Shown here piece by piece: positions 42,542-51,996 of a stretch of DNA of 64,000 nucleotides; the first letter of the stretch is position 1; each line of letters opens with the position of its first letter. Location of the stretch: NCBI GenBank assembly GCA_025964695.1, contig JAOPYK010000250.1, positions 1 to 64,000 on the forward strand. The letters are read 5' to 3'. Source of the DNA: Streptosporangiaceae bacterium. Lineage in GTDB: Bacteria > Actinomycetota > Actinomycetes > Streptosporangiales > Streptosporangiaceae. The translations under genes were made by a program, and so were the position numbers. Below the pieces are notes generated by a model that was not told the origin of the DNA, did no database searches, and was given only the letters and a program-made list of their open reading frames with translations.

Positions 42542-44569
42542 TCAGCGGGGGTGGATGTCGAGCGTGGGCGACCTGCTCCCGGTCGGGGGGATCCCCCGGG
42601 TCTGCAGGGCGAAGGACATGACGTCCTTGAACACCGGAGCCGCCACCGTGCCACCATAGTGGCCGCGCTGGGGATCCTGCAGCACGACCTGCACGACGAG
42701 CTGCGGATCATCGGCCGGTGCGAAGCCCGCGAAGGACGCGGTGTAGAGCCCGCCCGAGTAACGGCCGGTGCGCGGATCGACCTTCTCCGCCGTGCCGGTC
42801 TTGCCCGCCACCCGGTATCCCGGGATCTGCGCCTTCGGCGCGGTGCCCTCGTCGCTGGTCGCGCCTTCGAGCATGTCGCTGATCTGCTGGGCGGTCCGCT
42901 CAGTGATCACTCGCCGCTGCTGCGGCGCCGCCGCGGGGGTGAAGGTGCCGCGCTCGTCGGTCGTGCCGGCGATGATCGTGGGCGTGACCCGGACCCCCCT
43001 GTTGGCGATGGTCGCGTAGACGCTGGCCACCTGGAGCGCGTTGACGGTCACACCCTGGCCGTAGGCGATGGTGTAGCGCTGGGTCCCCGACCACTTGTCG
43101 GCCGGGGGCAGCTGGCCCATGGTCTCCCCGGGCAGCCCGACGCCGGTGGGCTGGCCGTACCCGAAATCGCGCATGAACTGGTAGAGCTGCTGCCCGGTGA
43201 TGTGCTCGCTCGCCTCGACCGTACCGACGTTGCTGGACTTGGCCAGCACCCCGCCGAAGGTCAGGCGCTCGGGGGGGTGCGAGTGGGAGTCACTGAGGAC
43301 GGCGTCGTACTTCTTGATGTGGTCCGGCACCGTGAACGGGGTCTGCGGGGTGATCCCGCCCTTCTCCAGGACCGCGGCGGCGGTGATGACCTTGTTGGTG
43401 CTGCCCGGCTCGAAGGCCTCCTGGACGACCCGGTTGCTCCAGTCCGCCGGCTTCGAGCTGGCGGGATGGTTCGGGTTGAAGGTGGGCGCGCTGGCCATGG
43501 CCAGGATCTGCCCGGTGCGCGGGTCCATGACGATCACGCTGCCGCTGGCCGCCTTGACCGCCTTCACCTGGGCGGCGATCGCCTTCTCCGCGTGGTACTG
43601 CAGGTCCTGCAGCAAGGTGAGCCGCAGGCCCCTGCCGGGGATCGGCTTGCGGGTCTGGTCCTCCCCCATCGGGATGTGCTGGCCGTCCCGGCTGGTCTCC
43701 ACCCGCTGCCAGCCCGGCCGGCCGCCGAGCAGCCGGTTCATGCCGCTCTCCAGGCCGGCTCCGCCGCTGCCGCTCTGGTTGACGAAGCCGACGACGTTCG
43801 CGGCGAGGCTGTCGCTGGGGTAGACCCGGCGGTACTCGCGGACGGAGCCGATCCCGGTGAACGACAGCGCCATCACCATCCGGGCCTGGTCCGGCGGGAT
43901 GTTGTGCGCGAGCACGACGTAGCGGGTATCCGGTTTGGCCGGGGTCAGCGACCTGAGGATCTGGGCCTGGTTGAGGCCGAGCATCGGCGCCAGGGTCTGC
44001 GCGATCTTGGCCCGCTGGTCGGGACGGACCATCACCGGGTCGGCGAAGATCGCCCGCGCCTCGACGGTCATGGCGATCTGCTTGCCCTGCGCGTCGGTGA
44101 TGTCACCGCGGACGGCGGGCAAGGTGATCTCGGTCAGCCGCTGCTTGATCGCCATCTTGGTGTAGACGGCGGACTCCATGCCCTGCAGCTGCATCAGCCG
44201 GCCGGCGAACAGCGACAGCACGAAGGCGATGAGGAGCAGCCCGATGTTGAGCCGCTTGAGGGGGTCCCTGCGGATCATGACCATCCGCGGCCGCGGGCGG
44301 CGGGGGGGCGGGCGGCCGGAGCCGCCCCGGCCGGTGGTTGCGGGCCGTGTGCCGTCCCGGGGCCGCAGCCGGTCGGCCGGCGGCGGGGTCTTCCTGGGTG
44401 TGCCCGCGCTCGGCGCGCGGGGGCTGCCTCCGGTCCCCTTGGCGGTGCCCGCGCCGGTCCCTCGGGAGGTGCCCCCCGCTCGGCGCGGCGTACCGCCGCC
44501 CTGCCCCCGGCCCGGCGGGCTGCCCCGCCGGCCCGGCGGCGGCATGGCAGGCCCCCGCCTGGTCGTCAC
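42542..44569 (-). CDS. ftsI: septal transpeptidase FtsI (PBP3, class B PBP)
   Basis: FtsI cross-links septal peptidoglycan in partnership with FtsW. The 675-residue protein has an exceptionally long Pro/Gly/Arg-rich cytoplasmic N-terminus (about 95 residues), a membrane helix (LNIGLLLIAFVLSLFAGRLM), the PBP dimer domain, and the transpeptidase domain with the active-site Ser-x-x-Lys in FEPGSTNKVIT, the SSN motif in AKSSNVGTVEAS, and AGKTGTAEK. The GTG at 44569 overlaps the ftsL stop. It is the third gene of the cluster after rsmH and ftsL. Confidence 0.96.
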   Translation of the reverse strand: MTTRRGPAMPPPGRRGSPPGRGQGGGTPRRAGGTSRGTGAGTAKGTGGSPRAPSAGTPRKTPPPADRLRPRDGTRPATTGRGGSGRPPPRRPRPRMVMIRRDPLKRLNIGLLLIAFVLSLFAGRLMQLQGMESAVYTKMAIKQRLTEITLPAVRGDITDAQGKQIAMTVEARAIFADPVMVRPDQRAKIAQTLAPMLGLNQAQILRSLTPAKPDTRYVVLAHNIPPDQARMVMALSFTGIGSVREYRRVYPSDSLAANVVGFVNQSGSGGAGLESGMNRLLGGRPGWQRVETSRDGQHIPMGEDQTRKPIPGRGLRLTLLQDLQYHAEKAIAAQVKAVKAASGSVIVMDPRTGQILAMASAPTFNPNHPASSKPADWSNRVVQEAFEPGSTNKVITAAAVLEKGGITPQTPFTVPDHIKKYDAVLSDSHSHPPERLTFGGVLAKSSNVGTVEASEHITGQQLYQFMRDFGYGQPTGVGLPGETMGQLPPADKWSGTQRYTIAYGQGVTVNALQVASVYATIANRGVRVTPTIIAGTTDERGTFTPAAAPQQRRVITERTAQQISDMLEGATSDEGTAPKAQIPGYRVAGKTGTAEKVDPRTGRYSGGLYTASFAGFAPADDPQLVVQVVLQDPQRGHYGGTVAAPVFKDVMSFALQTRGIPPTGSRSPTLDIHPR

Positions 44570-45171
44570 CGGGTCCCGCCCTGGGCCGGTACCGCCGATC
44601 CGCCTCCCCAGCCGGGGATGCCGTCACCGGGAACCACGGCACCCGGAACCCCGACCACTCCCGCGGCGCCCGCCGCGGCCGCGGCGGCGTGCGGCACCGG
44701 ACGCAGGGTGTCGCCCGCGACCCGGCCGGTTCTGGCGTCGACGAACGCGGGCCGGACCGGCTGGATCATGCCCAGTGCCTTCGCCTTCTGGGCGAGCCGC
44801 TCGGGCGCCTCCTCCCGGGCGATCTGCTCCTGCAGTGCCTGCCGCTGCTGGGTGAGCAGATTGTTGCTCTGCTGCAGCTCGGTGAGCGTGAACGCGTCCT
44901 GGGCCAGCACCGTGTTGAGCAGCAGCAGGCTGACCAGCGCGCCGCCGAGCAGCGCCACCACCAGCAGCACGAAGGGCGCCCGCGGTGGTACCCCCGGGCG
45001 TGCGGCCGGCGCCGGGGCGCGCGCCGCCCCGGTATCGGCCGCACGCCGGATGTCTGCGGGCGAGGTCTCCGTGGCCGGCCGCGGCGGAGCCTTGGGCCCG
45101 GTCCTGCCGGGCCTCTTGGCGGGCCTGTCGGTGGGCGCGGCCTTCGTCGGGCGCGTGGTCGTGGTGCTCAT
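44566..45171 (-). CDS. ftsL: FtsL-like cell division protein
   Basis: This 201-residue bitopic protein fits the position and layout of actinobacterial FtsL: a charged Pro/Ala-rich cytoplasmic N-terminus of about 65 residues, one helix ([19 protein letters not shown]), and a periplasmic leucine-zipper-like coiled coil ([22 protein letters not shown]) followed by [13 protein letters not shown], a typical DivIC/FtsL ending. About 50 extra Ala/Gly/Pro residues follow. The ATG start overlaps the rsmH stop by ATGA and its stop overlaps ftsI. Assignment rests on context and topology. Confidence 0.85.
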
Positions 45172-46139
45172 CCGGCCTCCCGGATCCGCTCAGCGGCGCG
45201 TAGCCGGACTGAGGCTGCCCGTGGGTTCGTGGTGATCTCGTCCTCGGACGGCAGTTCCGCCCCCCGGCCCAGCAGCCGGAACCTGGGCTGCAGGCCGGGG
45301 ATCGGGACGGGCAGATCCGGTGGAGTGGTGTCGATGGTGCGCTCGGCGAGGGCGCGCTTGGTGATGCGGTCCTCCAGCGAGTGGTACGACAGGACGACGA
45401 CCCTGCCGCCCACGCGCAGTGCGTCCAGGGCGGCGGGCAGCGCCCGCTCCCAGACCGCTAGTTCCTCGTTGACCTCGATGCGCAGCGCCTGGAAGGTGCG
45501 CTTGGCCGGGTTGCCGCCGGTGCGGCGGGTCGCGGCGGGGATCGAGGTCCGCACGATGTCGGCGAGGCGCTTGGTGGAGTCGAAGGGCTCGGTCTCGCGT
45601 TCCCGCACGATCGCCATGGCCACCCGGCGGGCGTAGCGCTCCTCGCCGTAGTCGCGCAGGATCCGGGTGAGCTCGCCGACGCTGTAGCCGTTCACCACCT
45701 CGGCGGCGGTGCGGCCGCGGGTACGGTCCATGCGCATGTCGAGCGGCGCGTCGTAGGAGTAGGCGAAGCCACGCTCGGCCTCGTCGAGCTGCGGGGAGGA
45801 CACGCCCAGGTCGAACAGGATCCCGTCGATCCGGGATACGCCGAGCCGCTCCAGGACGGCGGGAAGTTCGTCGTAGACGGCGTGGACGAGGGTCACGCGA
45901 TCCCCGAAGGGCGCCAGCCGCCGGCCGGACCGGTCCAGTGCCGTGGGGTCCCGGTCGAGCCCGATGAGCCTGAGCCGGGGATGGGCTTGGAGCATCGCGT
46001 AGGCGTGGCCCCCCATGCCCAGGGTGGCGTCCACGTAGATCGGCTCGGGGTTCTGGAATGCGGGCTCCAGCAACGACAGGACGCGATCGAGCATGACCGG
46101 TACGTGACCGTGCCCGCCCATGTCATCACTGCTGCGCAT
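45168..46139 (-). CDS. rsmH: 16S rRNA (cytosine-1402 N4) methyltransferase RsmH (MraW)
   Basis: RsmH methylates C1402 in the 16S rRNA P-site using S-adenosylmethionine. The 323-residue protein carries [16 protein letters not shown], the SAM motif [46 protein letters not shown], and the C-terminal [15 protein letters not shown]. The ATG at 46139 follows AAGGGGGG; the longer frame upstream is not supported. It is separated from mraZ by 217 bp that contain a 7-bp inverted repeat (46330-46344). Confidence 0.95.
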
Positions 46140-46356
46140 CCCTACACCCCCCTTGTGCTGCCACCGCTCGCGGACTGTGGCCTTCACCGGTCGCCGGGGG
46201 CCTCGCCCGGCCAGGTCCCCATCCGCTGCCCTGAGGAAGATCCCGTTGACGGGAATGCCACCTGGCGCCGGGGAAGCTGCGTCAGCTGGCGTGGAGAGCG
46301 GGTGGAGACCTGGCCGAACGTGGGCCACACCGGTCAATGACCGGAAAGTCGAACTC

Positions 46357-46788
46357 TCAAAGAACCCCGGGCAACACCTCCTCCGAAAGGTCGGAGAACT
46401 GCTGCTCTTCCTGCTCCAGGTAGGTTTCCCATGCCTGTGCGTCCCAGATTTCCAAACGTGTATTGGCCCCGATGACGGCGCAGTCGCGTTCCAGCCCGGC
46501 ATAGCCGCGCAACGCCGGCGGAATGGTGATCCGCCCCTGCTTGTCCGGGACCTCGTCGGAGGCGCTGGCGAAGAAGACACGGCTGTAGGCCCGAACGGAC
46601 CTGGCGGTGACCGGCGCGGTACGGAGCGCCTCGGTGATCCGCTCGAACTCTGCCATCGGGAAGAGGTACAGGCAGCGCTCCTGGCCCTTCGTGATCACCA
46701 GTCCCTCCGACAGCTCCTCGCGGTATTTGGCAGGGAGGAACAACCGCCCCTTGTCGTCCAGGCGCGGCGCATGGGTGCCGAGGAACAC
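46357..46788 (-). CDS. mraZ: MraZ transcriptional regulator of the dcw cluster
   Basis: MraZ is a DNA-binding protein of the SpoVT/AbrB-like fold that represses its own promoter and the dcw operon. The 143-residue protein shows two similar halves: [23 protein letters not shown] and [23 protein letters not shown], each with the DxxGR motif. The GTG at 46788 has GGGAGG about seven bases upstream and gives the canonical start [11 protein letters not shown]; the 21 upstream codons in frame are leader sequence containing the operator. Confidence 0.95.
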
Positions 46789-46825
46789 CGGCCCCACCTC
46801 CCGGACGCCGCGGAGAGCAAATGCT

Positions 46826-46861
46826 CCCCACAGCGCCCCACTGTACTCCACTCTCCTCCAC
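46826..46861 (-). promoter_or_regulatory. MraZ box: four direct repeats GTGGRG, period exactly 10 bp
   Basis: On the minus strand the hexamers are GTGGAG (46856-46861), GTGGAG (46846-46851), GTGGGG (46836-46841) and GTGGGG (46826-46831). The 10-bp period, one DNA turn, and the position 38-73 bp before the mraZ start match MraZ operators described in other bacteria. The array overlaps the promoter, as expected for autorepression. Confidence 0.8.
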
Positions 46862-46867
46862 CGTCAA
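46840..46867 (-). promoter_or_regulatory. mraZ: mraZ promoter
   Basis: TTGACG (46862-46867) and TACAGT (46840-46845) on the minus strand are separated by 16 bp. Two of the four MraZ-box repeats lie in the spacer and two just downstream, so a bound MraZ would block polymerase. Confidence 0.65.
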
Positions 46868-47254
46868 CTGAGAAAACGCTGTTTCTGCGCCGTCTCCTCC
46901 GACAAAGCCCCAGGTCACGGCGGTGGAGCGGAGTGGGGGGCCGTCGTCCGCCACCGGAGCGCCGGGCCCTCCCGTGGGCGAGGCGAGGCCCAAGGGGTCG
47001 CGCCCGGACCGCCACGGCCCGGCTCCAGGCGCGTGATCGGAGTCGCGGGGCGCCCCGGCGCATGCGGGCCGGCGGTGGCAAACCAATAGGAACCGGAGAT
47101 TCACCGATTCCCGCAAAACACGGTTTACTCAACTGCCACGCGGTCATCGCGGCCGGGATGCCTGACGACGTAATGTCGAAAGCCGGACAAAATTAAAGTG
47201 GCGCCCCGGGCCGTGGACGCCGCGGGTGGGCCGGCAGGCGACTGAGGAGGGTTA
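46868..47254. other. mraZ-moxR divergent intergenic region
   Basis: About 390 bp without a supported gene; open frames here are short shadows. The moxR-proximal part (47085-47205) is AT-richer than its surroundings, which fits the moxR promoter, but no clear -35/-10 pair could be assigned. The moxR ribosome site GAGGAGGG ends this region. Confidence 0.4.
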
Positions 47255-48244
<990 letters not shown>

Positions 48245-48262
48245 CCGAGTCGGCCACCGGAG

Positions 48263-49549
48263 ATGCGTAAGTCACTCAACGCCCTCACCACCCGCGGCCG
48301 GTCCTTCGTCGCCGCGGGGCTGACCGCGATCCTGTGCGCGTTCATCCTGGGCGAGCGGGATCTGCTCCGGGCCGGCACTCTCGTGCTGGCCATGCCGCTG
48401 CTGTCGTCGCTCGCGGTGTCGCGTACCCGCTACCGGCTCGCCTGCGCCCGGCGGCTCGATCCGTCCCGGCTGCCGGTCGGCCATGAGTCACGTGTCGATC
48501 TGCGCCTGGAGAACGTGTCCCGGCTGCCGACCGGGCTGCTGCTGGTCGAGGACCGGGTGCCTTACACCCTCGGCGGCCGGGCCCGGTTCGTGCTGGACCG
48601 GGTGGAGGCCAACGGAGCGCGCGAGCTGAGCTACCGGGTCCGCTCCGACGTGCGCGGCCGCTACCGGGTGGGTCCGCTGACCGTACGCCTGGCGGATCCG
48701 TTCGGGCTGGTCGAGCTGGCCCGCTCGTTCAGCCTCACCGACACCCTCACGGTGACCCCAACCATCGTCCCGCTGCCCCCCGGCCGGCTGAGCGGGGCGT
48801 GGACCGGCGGCGGGGACAGCCGCGCGCGCACGGTCTCCAGCGCCGGCGAGGACGACATCGCTCCCCGCGAGTACCGCCAGGGCGATGACCTGCGCCGGAT
48901 CCACTGGCGTTCCACGGCCAGGCACGGCGAGCTGATGGTGCGGCGCGAGGAGCAGCAGTGGCAGAGCCGGGGGGCGCTCTTCCTGGACACCCGGCGCCAC
49001 GTGCACCGCGGCGAAGGCCCGGGGTCGTCGTTCGAGCAGGCGGTCTCGGCCACCGCCTCGGTGGGCGTGCACCTGGCCCGGGAGGGATTCGGCCTGCGGT
49101 ACGTGACCGACGCCGGCGAATCGCAGGCCTCCTCCGGCGGCAGCGGCTTCGAGGGGGCCCTGCTGGACGCGCTGGCGGTCGCCCGGACGTCCGGGAACAG
49201 GTCGCTGGTCCCCGGGCTCGGTGCGCTCCGTGAGGCGATCGGAGCGCACCGGGAGGGGGACGGGCTGGTCATCGCGATCTTCGGTCAGCTGGATCCCGCG
49301 GAAGCGCGTGCCGTGGCCGCGATCCGGCGCGGAACCGCCACCTGCGTCGCGATCCTGGTCGACGTGAACCAGCGGGACGGGGTACCGGGGCACGGCCCCA
49401 TCATGATCGCGACGGAGACGCTGCGCACGGCGGGCTGGCGGGTGCTCACGATCAGCACGGCCGGCGCGCTGGCCACCGCCTGGGCCCATGCCGGCGAGGC
49501 ATTGGAAGACGCCCGATACAGCCCGCCCGCCGAGCGGAGCAGGCCATGA
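48263..49549 (+). CDS. DUF58 domain protein, MoxR partner
   Basis: This 428-residue protein starts with two hydrophobic helices (FVAAGLTAILCAFILG and GTLVLAMPLLSSLAV), then a beta-rich region, and then the DUF58 signature REYRQGDDLRRIHWRSTARHGELMVRREEQQ. The C-terminal half resembles a von Willebrand A-like fold with LFLDTR. It is encoded 18 bp after moxR and overlaps the transglutaminase gene by ATGA, so the three products probably act together at the membrane. The function is not established. Confidence 0.88.
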   Translation: MRKSLNALTTRGRSFVAAGLTAILCAFILGERDLLRAGTLVLAMPLLSSLAVSRTRYRLACARRLDPSRLPVGHESRVDLRLENVSRLPTGLLLVEDRVPYTLGGRARFVLDRVEANGARELSYRVRSDVRGRYRVGPLTVRLADPFGLVELARSFSLTDTLTVTPTIVPLPPGRLSGAWTGGGDSRARTVSSAGEDDIAPREYRQGDDLRRIHWRSTARHGELMVRREEQQWQSRGALFLDTRRHVHRGEGPGSSFEQAVSATASVGVHLAREGFGLRYVTDAGESQASSGGSGFEGALLDALAVARTSGNRSLVPGLGALREAIGAHREGDGLVIAIFGQLDPAEARAVAAIRRGTATCVAILVDVNQRDGVPGHGPIMIATETLRTAGWRVLTISTAGALATAWAHAGEALEDARYSPPAERSRP

Positions 49550-51996
49550 AGACACGTCTGACCGTCACCGCCGCGGTGGCCACGCTGCTGAGCTCGATCG
49601 GGCTCTACCCGCTGTTCATCGGCTGGGCCTGGTTCTGGCCGGGGCTGGGAGCGGTCGCCGTCGTGTCCGGCGCGGGAGCGCTGACCCGCCGGTTCCGGCT
49701 ACCCGCGATCTTCAACCTGGCGGGCGGCCTGGCCGCGCTGAACCTGTACCTGACGACGGTCTACACCGCCCCCGAGGCGTTCCTGTGGGTCGTGCCCACT
49801 CCCGCGTCGCTGGCGCGGCTGGGCTCGCTGATGGGCGACGGCTGGAACACCGCGAACAAGTACACCGCGCCCGTGCCGCTGAACGACGGCGTCGCGCTGC
49901 TGGCCACCCTCGGCGTCGGGCTGGTCGCCTCGACCGTAGACCTGCTGGCGGTACGGCTGCGCCGCGCCGCCCCCGCGGGCCTGCCGCTGCTGGCGATGTA
50001 CAGCGTGCCGGCGGCGGTACGGGACGAGAGCGTCAGCTGGATCGCCTTCATGCTGGGCGCGATCGGGTTCATGGCGCTGCTCCTCGCCGACGCGCGGGAG
50101 CAGGTGAGCGGCTGGGGCCGCCACGTGCTGTCCGTCCGCTGGTCCGAGGAGGTGCCGGGTGAGCGTCCCGACTCTCGGGCCATGGCGGGAACGGGGCGCC
50201 GGGTCGGGCTGGCCGCCGTCGCCATCGCGGTGCTGCTGCCGATGGCGGTGCCCGGGATCCACCCGAAGGGGCTGCTCGGGCTGAGCGGCACCGGTGACCG
50301 GCCCGCGGGGTCGGGCACGGTGCGGAAACCGGACCCGATGGTCAGCCTGCGGCGGGAACTGCAGCGGCCGGACGACTCGGTGGTGCTGACCTACCGCACC
50401 GACGACCCGGGGCAGCCCGACTATCTGCGGTTGTGGGCACTGGACCTGTTCGAGTCCGGGCAGTGGACCTACAGCTCGTTCAACGGCACGCCCAAGGACA
50501 GGATCAAGAACCGCGATCTGCCGCCCGCACCCGGCCTGACCCAGGACACCCCGGTCCGTACCGTGCGGACCGAGATCAAGATGGACCGGCACGCCAAGGA
50601 CTTCGAGTTCCTGCCGCTGCCGTACGCGCCGGCCCGCGTGGGCATCAGCGGGGACTGGCGGGTCCACCCCGCCTCGCTCATGGTCTACTCCCTGCACGAC
50701 GTGGCCGACGGACGGTCGTACACGGTCACCAGCAAGCGGCCCGAGCCGACGGCCGAGCAGCTCCAGGCCGCCGGCGAGGCCCCCGCGGATATCAGGAGCC
50801 ACTATCTCGCGGTGAGCCCGGAGGTACAGGACTCCATCCAGGCGCTGGCCCGCAAGCACACCAAGGGCGCGCAGACGGACTACCAGCGGGCGATGAAGCT
50901 GCAGCAGTGGTTCACCTCGTCCGCGTTCACCTACAGCCTGACCGCGCAGCCTCCGGACAACGCCAACGACCTCGTCGACTTCCTCACCAAGCACCAGGTC
51001 GGGTACTGCCAGCAGTTCGCGGCCGCGATGGCGGTCCTCGCCCGCAGCCTGGGCATCCCCGCCCGGGTCGCCGCGGGCTACACCGCCGGCAGCCGGGACC
51101 AGAACGGCACCTGGGTGGTGCGGTCCCGGGACGCGCACGCGTGGCCGGAGCTGTACTTCGAAGGCGTGGGGTGGGTGCGCTTCGAACCGACCCCCGGGGC
51201 GGGCGGCGGGCCCGGCCAGGGCACCGCGACCACCCCCGCCTACGCCGAGACGGCCACCGGGGACACCGGTTCCGGACAGGGAGGCCACGCCCCACCGGCC
51301 ACGCCGTCGCCCGCGGTCACCGGCGGCCAGGCCACGCCCGGAGCGGGCCCGCTCGGTCACCGCCCGGACGAGGGCGGGCTCACCGGTACGGTCCCGAAGC
51401 GGAAGACCGGCCCGGGCGTGCCGCTCGGCTGGATCAGCGCGATCCTGCTCGTCCTGTTGATCCTGGCGGCGCCCATGGGCGTACGCCTCGCCACCAGGCG
51501 CCGCCGCTGGGCCCAGGCGATCCGGCCGCCGGCCCGCGAGCCGGCCTCCCGGGGTCCGGTCCGGCCACGGCGGACGTGGCGGGACGACCCGCCCGCCGAT
51601 CCCGCGGAGGCCGCGCACGCCGCCTGGGCCGAGATGCGCGCGGACGCCATCGACCACGGCCTGCCCTGGCGGTCCAGCGACAGCCCCCGCTCCGCGGCGC
51701 ACCATCTCGCCGAGCTCCTCGAGCTGGCCGGTCCCGCCTCCGCCGCCCTGGACCGGATCGCCCTGGCGGAGGAACGCGCCCGGTACGCCCCCGTACCGGC
51801 TCCGGCCGACACGCTCCGCGCGGACGTGCAGGTCATGCGCACCGTGATCGCCGAATCCGTGGATCGCAAGACCCGGCTGCGCGCCCGGTTCGTTCCGCCG
51901 ACGGCCATGTCGGCGCTGCGCGGGGCCGGCGGCCGGTCGCTCGAGACCTTCGACCGCCTGGTAAGCCGGATCGGGGAGCTGACACACCGCAGGTAG
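49546..51996 (+). CDS. TgpA-like membrane transglutaminase
   Basis: The 816-residue protein has an N-terminal multi-helix part (at least five helices within residues 1-235), an extracytoplasmic DUF3488-like region, and a transglutaminase domain. The nucleophile is in GYCQQFAAAMAVLARSLGIPAR (Cys488), and the His in SRDAHAWPELYF (His531). The usual third residue, Asp, is Glu in WVRFEPTPG. A Gly/Thr-rich linker, a further helix (PLGWISAILLVLLILAAPMGV) and a cytoplasmic DUF4129-like tail follow. It ends the moxR operon; its last codons lie in the first unit of a 15-bp repeat array. Confidence 0.88.
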   Translation: MKTRLTVTAAVATLLSSIGLYPLFIGWAWFWPGLGAVAVVSGAGALTRRFRLPAIFNLAGGLAALNLYLTTVYTAPEAFLWVVPTPASLARLGSLMGDGWNTANKYTAPVPLNDGVALLATLGVGLVASTVDLLAVRLRRAAPAGLPLLAMYSVPAAVRDESVSWIAFMLGAIGFMALLLADAREQVSGWGRHVLSVRWSEEVPGERPDSRAMAGTGRRVGLAAVAIAVLLPMAVPGIHPKGLLGLSGTGDRPAGSGTVRKPDPMVSLRRELQRPDDSVVLTYRTDDPGQPDYLRLWALDLFESGQWTYSSFNGTPKDRIKNRDLPPAPGLTQDTPVRTVRTEIKMDRHAKDFEFLPLPYAPARVGISGDWRVHPASLMVYSLHDVADGRSYTVTSKRPEPTAEQLQAAGEAPADIRSHYLAVSPEVQDSIQALARKHTKGAQTDYQRAMKLQQWFTSSAFTYSLTAQPPDNANDLVDFLTKHQVGYCQQFAAAMAVLARSLGIPARVAAGYTAGSRDQNGTWVVRSRDAHAWPELYFEGVGWVRFEPTPGAGGGPGQGTATTPAYAETATGDTGSGQGGHAPPATPSPAVTGGQATPGAGPLGHRPDEGGLTGTVPKRKTGPGVPLGWISAILLVLLILAAPMGVRLATRRRRWAQAIRPPAREPASRGPVRPRRTWRDDPPADPAEAAHAAWAEMRADAIDHGLPWRSSDSPRSAAHHLAELLELAGPASAALDRIALAEERARYAPVPAPADTLRADVQVMRTVIAESVDRKTRLRARFVPPTAMSALRGAGGRSLETFDRLVSRIGELTHRR

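Follow-up and report, generated by a model that had tools for sequence, protein, structure and literature searches.

What is the role of the evenly spaced G-rich boxes in front of mraZ, and do they make up the whole control region of this gene? The question is raised by a stretch of 64,000 nucleotides from a Streptosporangiaceae bacterium (assembly GCA_025964695.1, contig JAOPYK010000250.1, positions 1 to 64,000), hereafter called the window, in which mraZ heads a division and cell wall (dcw) gene cluster. Few bacterial regulators are as conserved as MraZ, and three or four boxes suffice for it. In the window, four boxes overlap the mraZ promoter (site O1) and an inverted pair of the same boxes (O2) lies further upstream; many relatives possess a second inverted pair (O3). 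Comparison of these sequences argues that O1 probably mediates autorepression, that phased O2 and O3 sites would raise the occupancy of O1 by bridging, and that a putative second protein would act at a conserved AGGTCA element.

The O1 box array on the mraZ promoter

The mraZ gene (46357..46788, minus strand; 143 amino acids) was recognized by NCBIfam model TIGR00242 with 132.1 bits at a cut-off of 98.35. Homologues begin at MFLGTH, placing the start at the GTG at 46788; a longer, mechanically called open reading frame begins inside box 2 and does not represent the gene start. The protein is matched by the solved MraZ chains 1n0e, 9qlr, 9sx6 and 9qlg. O1 (46826..46861, minus strand) is located 37 base pairs (bp) before mraZ and consists of box 1 (GTGGAG, 46861-46856), spacer GAGA, box 2 (GTGGAG, 46851-46846), spacer TACA, box 3 (GTGGGG, 46841-46836), spacer CGCT and box 4 (GTGGGG, 46831-46826). 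The -35 hexamer TTGACG (46862..46867, minus strand) abuts box 1, and the -10 hexamer TACAGT (46840..46845, minus strand) lies between boxes 2 and 3, separated from the -35 by exactly 16 bp and sharing its final GT with box 3, so that the promoter core is covered by the array. The first-pass annotation had described GTGGRG hexamers at 46826, 46836, 46846 and 46856 overlapping TTGACG-N16-TACAGT; its coordinates are right, the steps on the minus strand are exactly 10 bp, and the overlap is exact in the sequence. When the window was shuffled 100 times with dinucleotides preserved, three boxes in register never arose, and O1 is the sole three-box in-register site in its own 7.66-Mb genome, even when the pattern was relaxed to GTGGNG. 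No Rfam family matched an RNA element in 44000-50000.

Conservation was examined in set A, composed of the window and the best 80 of 566 confirmed relatives (81 loci). All 81 loci carry four GTGGNG boxes at the exact 10-bp period, a period whose loss in close relatives the first-pass annotation had named as fatal to its proposal and which is kept class-wide as well. TTGACG or TTGACC immediately precedes box 1 in 79/81 loci, the spacer after box 2 reads TANN in 81/81, and box 2 reads GTGGAG in all but one locus (80/81). Within each box the second-position T and the final G never vary, nor do the TA of spacer 2 and the period, and the fifth base is free. In a survey of the class, whose family f1 loci partly duplicate set-A species, 39 of 83 loci matched all 20 box positions and 61 matched at least 18; with the TA of spacer 2 counted, 77 of the 83 reached at least 18/22, the best of 415 shuffles reaching 17. 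A score of at least 18/22 was also obtained for 54 of a further 60 loci. A motif search across the order revealed exact three-box GTGGRG sites in 108/200 genomes, a few of which (such as those in G014 and G134) resemble unrelated simple repeats.

Similar arrays exist outside the phylum. E. coli reportedly has an MraZ operator of TGGGN repeats, a description ascribed to Eraso in 2014. E. coli K-12 reads GTGGGA-N4-GTGGGG-N4-GTGGGA upstream of mraZ and so has, beside the promoter and on the mraZ strand, three GTGGG boxes with a 10-bp period; this array follows just past the promoter hexamers, whereas the four boxes of the window extend across -35 and -10. The Mollicute site (AAAGTGKN3)3, as given in the available parts of PMC5282649 and PMC8475190, shares with the window the GTG core, the 10-bp unit and the direct repeats at the dcw promoter, but differs in its flanking bases, and those parts do not mention upstream inverted pairs. 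In Burkholderia cenocepacia, according to the accessible text of PMC7761207, four repeats of 7 nt with 3-nt spacers lie in an MraZ-bound fragment, downstream of the -10 and in this respect unlike O1. By its position before the first dcw gene, its GTG(G) direct repeats of a 10-bp unit and its conservation, O1 itself is a known kind of site, an ordinary MraZ operator. The first-pass proposal of an MraZ operator on the mraZ promoter is strongly supported by position, by conservation in 81/81 loci and by the E. coli K-12 boxes, and binding of MraZ to O1 is almost certain.

Inverted box pairs upstream and their helical phasing

Absent from the first-pass annotation were an inverted box pair at 46923-46938 and an adjoining conserved AGGTCA. 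The pair, O2 (46923..46938, plus strand), reads GTGGAG-cgga-GTGGGG; like O3 it repeats the O1 box with the same 10-bp unit, in inverted orientation. It represents a second copy of an O1-type site at a distance, as in looping operators. An exact pair of this kind arose in 39 of 20000 shuffles of the 394-bp upstream piece of the window. Of the 81 set-A loci, 75 contain exact opposite-strand pairs no further than 400 bp from box 1 (108 pairs; shuffle expectation for the 81 loci: mean 0.4, maximum 1), and none of the 81 contains an exact pair on the O1 strand. The gap is specific as well. In a set of 220 loci (80 of set A, 24 of family f1, 106 of other families and 10 chosen by pattern), a 4-bp gap on the opposite strand gave 192 pairs in 137 loci. 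Gaps of 0-3 gave 2, 4, 5 and 2 pairs, gaps of 5-8 gave 17, 17, 21 and 3, and the O1 strand gave 3 pairs at gap 4. Left out of these counts were L009, L175 and L240, in which the sequence before box 1 is shorter than 110 bp, and L243, with an array score of 13. The ten pattern-chosen loci (L247-L256) were picked for carrying AGGTCA plus the pair; they are included in the 220-locus counts and used for distances, and stand outside all unbiased presence counts.

Among 80 set-A loci, O2 was present in 54, O3 in 52 and both in 31. O2 lies at 61 bp; its distance from box 1 is 59-63 bp in 72 loci, and the O1-O2 intervals of these loci fall into 31 clusters at 60% identity. O3 follows in many relatives ~95-150 bp beyond O2. 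A comparison of 24 further loci (L270-L293, 22 of them from other classes of the phylum) revealed opposite-strand pairs in 9, of which 7 belong to other classes, six of them to family f58; O1 is often less regular in these loci, making the register less certain. TA follows the second box in 0/90 O2 and 0/102 O3 sites, so that neither site is promoter-like. As a divergent promoter, O2 was rejected, with no TTGAC before and no TA after its boxes.

The distances of the inverted pairs from O1 follow the helical repeat. The periodogram of all 192 pair offsets is strongest at 10.50 bp (R 0.66). Merging by genus or family, the only way in which the uniform null models descent, left 98 offsets with a period of 10.52 bp and R 0.50, matched by 0/4000 uniform sets. 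For the far pairs (O3-O1) of set-A genera, R was 0.76 (n=23; 0/4000). The deduplicated O3-O2 distances behaved alike: 18 values gave R 0.75 (0/20000), and the 12 values outside family f1 (116, 125 four times, 136, 147 three times, 169, 172 and 179) gave R 0.77 (8/20000). Whole-turn spacing, as found in looping operators, is thus seen in the relatives. Single families display the same steps: the O3-O2 values are 125, 147 and 169 in f45 and 125 and 147 in f35, steps of 22 bp corresponding to two helical turns. O2 and O3 are probably bound by MraZ.

Two further conserved elements were noticed around O3. In Nonomuraea and related loci (e.g. L048 and L056), the region between O2 and O3 contains a conserved CAACCCTC-atgggcgtgtc-GAGGGTTG hairpin and, in addition, GGGCGTGTCG, which includes GACAC, the WhiA core, on the mraZ strand. 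Actinomadura loci (e.g. L014 and L019) have a conserved AGCACAATGGGCTCGCGTTC beyond O3, which resembles a degenerate box-CACA-box and is possibly the moxR promoter.

The AGGTCA element and competing explanations

The AGGTCA element (46912..46917, plus strand; TGACCT on the mraZ strand), where the window reads CCAGGTCA, is a presumed factor site recognized by its conserved offset. AGGTCA lies 49-50 bp from box 1 in 66/80 set-A loci, followed by G in 51 of these 66. On the mraZ strand, TGACCTGCG is conserved at -56 to -48 with 1.1 to 1.9 bits per column; conservation is poor over most of the 40 bp that separate it from the -35, and the offset is nonetheless fixed. GCAGGTCA occurs 40-130 bp upstream in 14/106 other-family loci, as against none for its opposite orientation and none for the two backward-read controls. 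Together with the box pair, AGGTCA occurs only once in its own genome, at mraZ, and the combined pattern was detected in 46/394 class genomes, several matches not being at mraZ. As the -35 of a second mraZ promoter, the element was rejected after inspection of the listed sequences by eye, no -10 being present at 16-18 bp. Genome G232 has two mraZ copies on two contigs (L211 and L212), each with O1, AGGTCA and box pair.

Outside set A, the AGGTCA offsets are 48-50 (25 loci), 59, 59, 60, 69, 69, 70, 70, 70, 71, 81, 81, 94, 94 and 102. When one value per family and distance was taken, a choice of our own, the in-phase score of the eight family-level shifted values was matched by 7e-5 of random sets; the offset of 94 is ~2.5 bp out of phase.

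An activator such as MtrA might also bind at O2 and AGGTCA together, as the fixed distance of 49-50 bp across a poorly conserved interval could indicate; MraZ would then compete with it through the box pair. The available portion of PMC9602371 reports binding of MtrA to the Dietzia mraZ promoter in an electrophoretic mobility shift assay, and GTCACGGCG in the window comes close to the mycobacterial GTCACAgcg. Against this, most set-A loci have AGGTCAG and not GTnAC, a misfit to the MtrA motif; inspection by eye showed no second half-site at a distance of 11 bp, and hence no direct repeat of GTnAC-like half-sites; and the period-10 GTGGNG repeats differ from the MtrA motif as far as the published text available describes it. 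We consider a site of this kind unlikely.

A further explanation assigns control of mraZ to O1 alone and makes O2 and O3 the MraZ operators of a divergent moxR operon. The boxes of both sites are oriented towards the divergent gene, which is a MoxR homologue in 108/123 loci. However, the position of O3 is held much more tightly relative to O1 (standard deviation of the offset 12.8 bp) than to MoxR (44.6 bp; 51 pairs in 50 loci), and no -10-like TA follows the O2 or O3 boxes. Moreover, O2 or O3 is present in loci where no MoxR was seen; most of these stretches measure only 761 bp, the firmer cases being four f6 loci, one f28 locus and one f46 locus of 3.4 kb. We judge this explanation improbable, and the MoxR-type gene is probably a flanking gene and not the target of O2.

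Two proposals concern O1 itself. The first-pass annotation had suggested a graded affinity, the two boxes beside the -35 reading GTGGAG and the other two GTGGGG; the fifth base, A or G, would set it. This is correct as a description of the window, but the fifth-base order of boxes 1-4 in the 81 set-A loci is GATA in 33, GAGG in 28, AATA in 7, the AAGG of the window in only 2 and other orders in 11. We reject graded affinity as very improbable because the order is not conserved; the A/G gradient is a property of the window sequence and not of the family. Action of the G-rich repeats through a G-quadruplex, as suggested for the mraZ promoter of S. aureus and reported for those of other bacteria in the accessible text of PMC11796246, is hardly conceivable here, since a quadruplex needs G runs only and set A keeps T2, the last G, the spacer-2 TA and the period with a free fifth base. 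The quadruplexes described in that text may be the same G-rich MraZ boxes.

Gene neighbourhood and proposed mechanism

Downstream of mraZ, the cluster continues on the minus strand with rsmH (mraW), ftsL and ftsI, mraZ being the first gene. The open reading frame containing rsmH (45168..46580; TIGR00006, 307.7 bits) matches the domain from residue 158 onwards, which probably puts the true start near 46110-46130. It is followed by ftsL (44566..45171; NF053549) and a gene for an ftsI-type penicillin-binding protein (42542..44569; class B matches below their cut-offs). The divergent gene (47255..48244, plus strand) gave weak AAA matches; we take its product to be a MoxR-type AAA ATPase. It opens an operon (47255-51996) with DUF58-like (48263-49549) and transglutaminase-like membrane protein (49546-51996) genes, both named from reading of the translations. 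In the class survey, family f20 (genus g62) gave no MraZ match in the listed genomes; as these are near-complete, loss across the whole genus is suggested.

Returning to autorepression assisted by phased upstream pairs, the explanation that we consider likely, MraZ would repress its own promoter, and hence the dcw cluster, through O1. Subunits of the ring would occupy the four boxes one helical turn apart, and the protein would cover spacer, -10 and start site and exclude RNA polymerase. We infer repression as the outcome from the position of O1 on the -35 and -10; the rise of the dcw cluster in an M. genitalium mraZ mutant, reported in the available part of PMC8475190, agrees with it. Octameric MraZ toroids on repeats are cited for Mollicutes in the accessible text of PMC7761207. 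Since a ring of eight exceeds the four O1 boxes, spare subunits could hold O2 or O3, which, on the same helical face as O1, would let MraZ bridge or fold the DNA. A second, putative protein would bind AGGTCA between O1 and O2.

In the lac system and other looping operators, an auxiliary operator lies ~90 bp from the main one in helical phase. By our arithmetic, the centre-to-centre distances are ~88 bp for O1-O2 and ~190 bp for O1-O3, and bridging might raise O1 occupancy as lac O3 does for lac O1. Unlike in lac, the auxiliary sites would be inverted pairs taken from a direct-repeat array, the protein that reads it would form a ring, and looping is here deduced from sequence. Whether MraZ bridges O1 with O2 or O3 we regard as an even call. 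Tentatively, Actinomycetota MraZ could fold a nucleoprotein complex in which one ring, or a stack of rings, holds O1 together with the inverted O2 and O3 pairs, a factor that bends or contacts the DNA at GCAGGTCA fixes the geometry and the parts shift during evolution by whole helical turns only, an arrangement that is possible if somewhat doubtful.

Several observations weigh against assisted repression of this kind. An exact O2 or O3 was found in only 36/106 unbiased other-family loci, so these pairs cannot be a general requirement. Within the 734 bases examined, E. coli K-12 lacks an inverted pair upstream. The window contains no O3 (best match 7/10, shuffle level), and the strongest phasing evidence therefore comes from relatives. 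Phasing of the far pairs is weak in other families (n=40, R 0.35, 167/4000 uniform sets as good), and some of the deduplicated O3-O2 values stem from several pairs within a single locus.

The literature searched, which did not include the main MraZ papers, holds no description of an upstream MraZ array or of MraZ looping, and relative to that literature the phased inverted extension is new. The AGGTCA element, which keeps its offset in several families of the class, may point to a second regulator of the division cluster. Phased inverted boxes would offer a direct reason, bridging, for the many-subunit ring of MraZ, and, if this holds true, the cell-division gene cluster would be headed by a looping repression complex.
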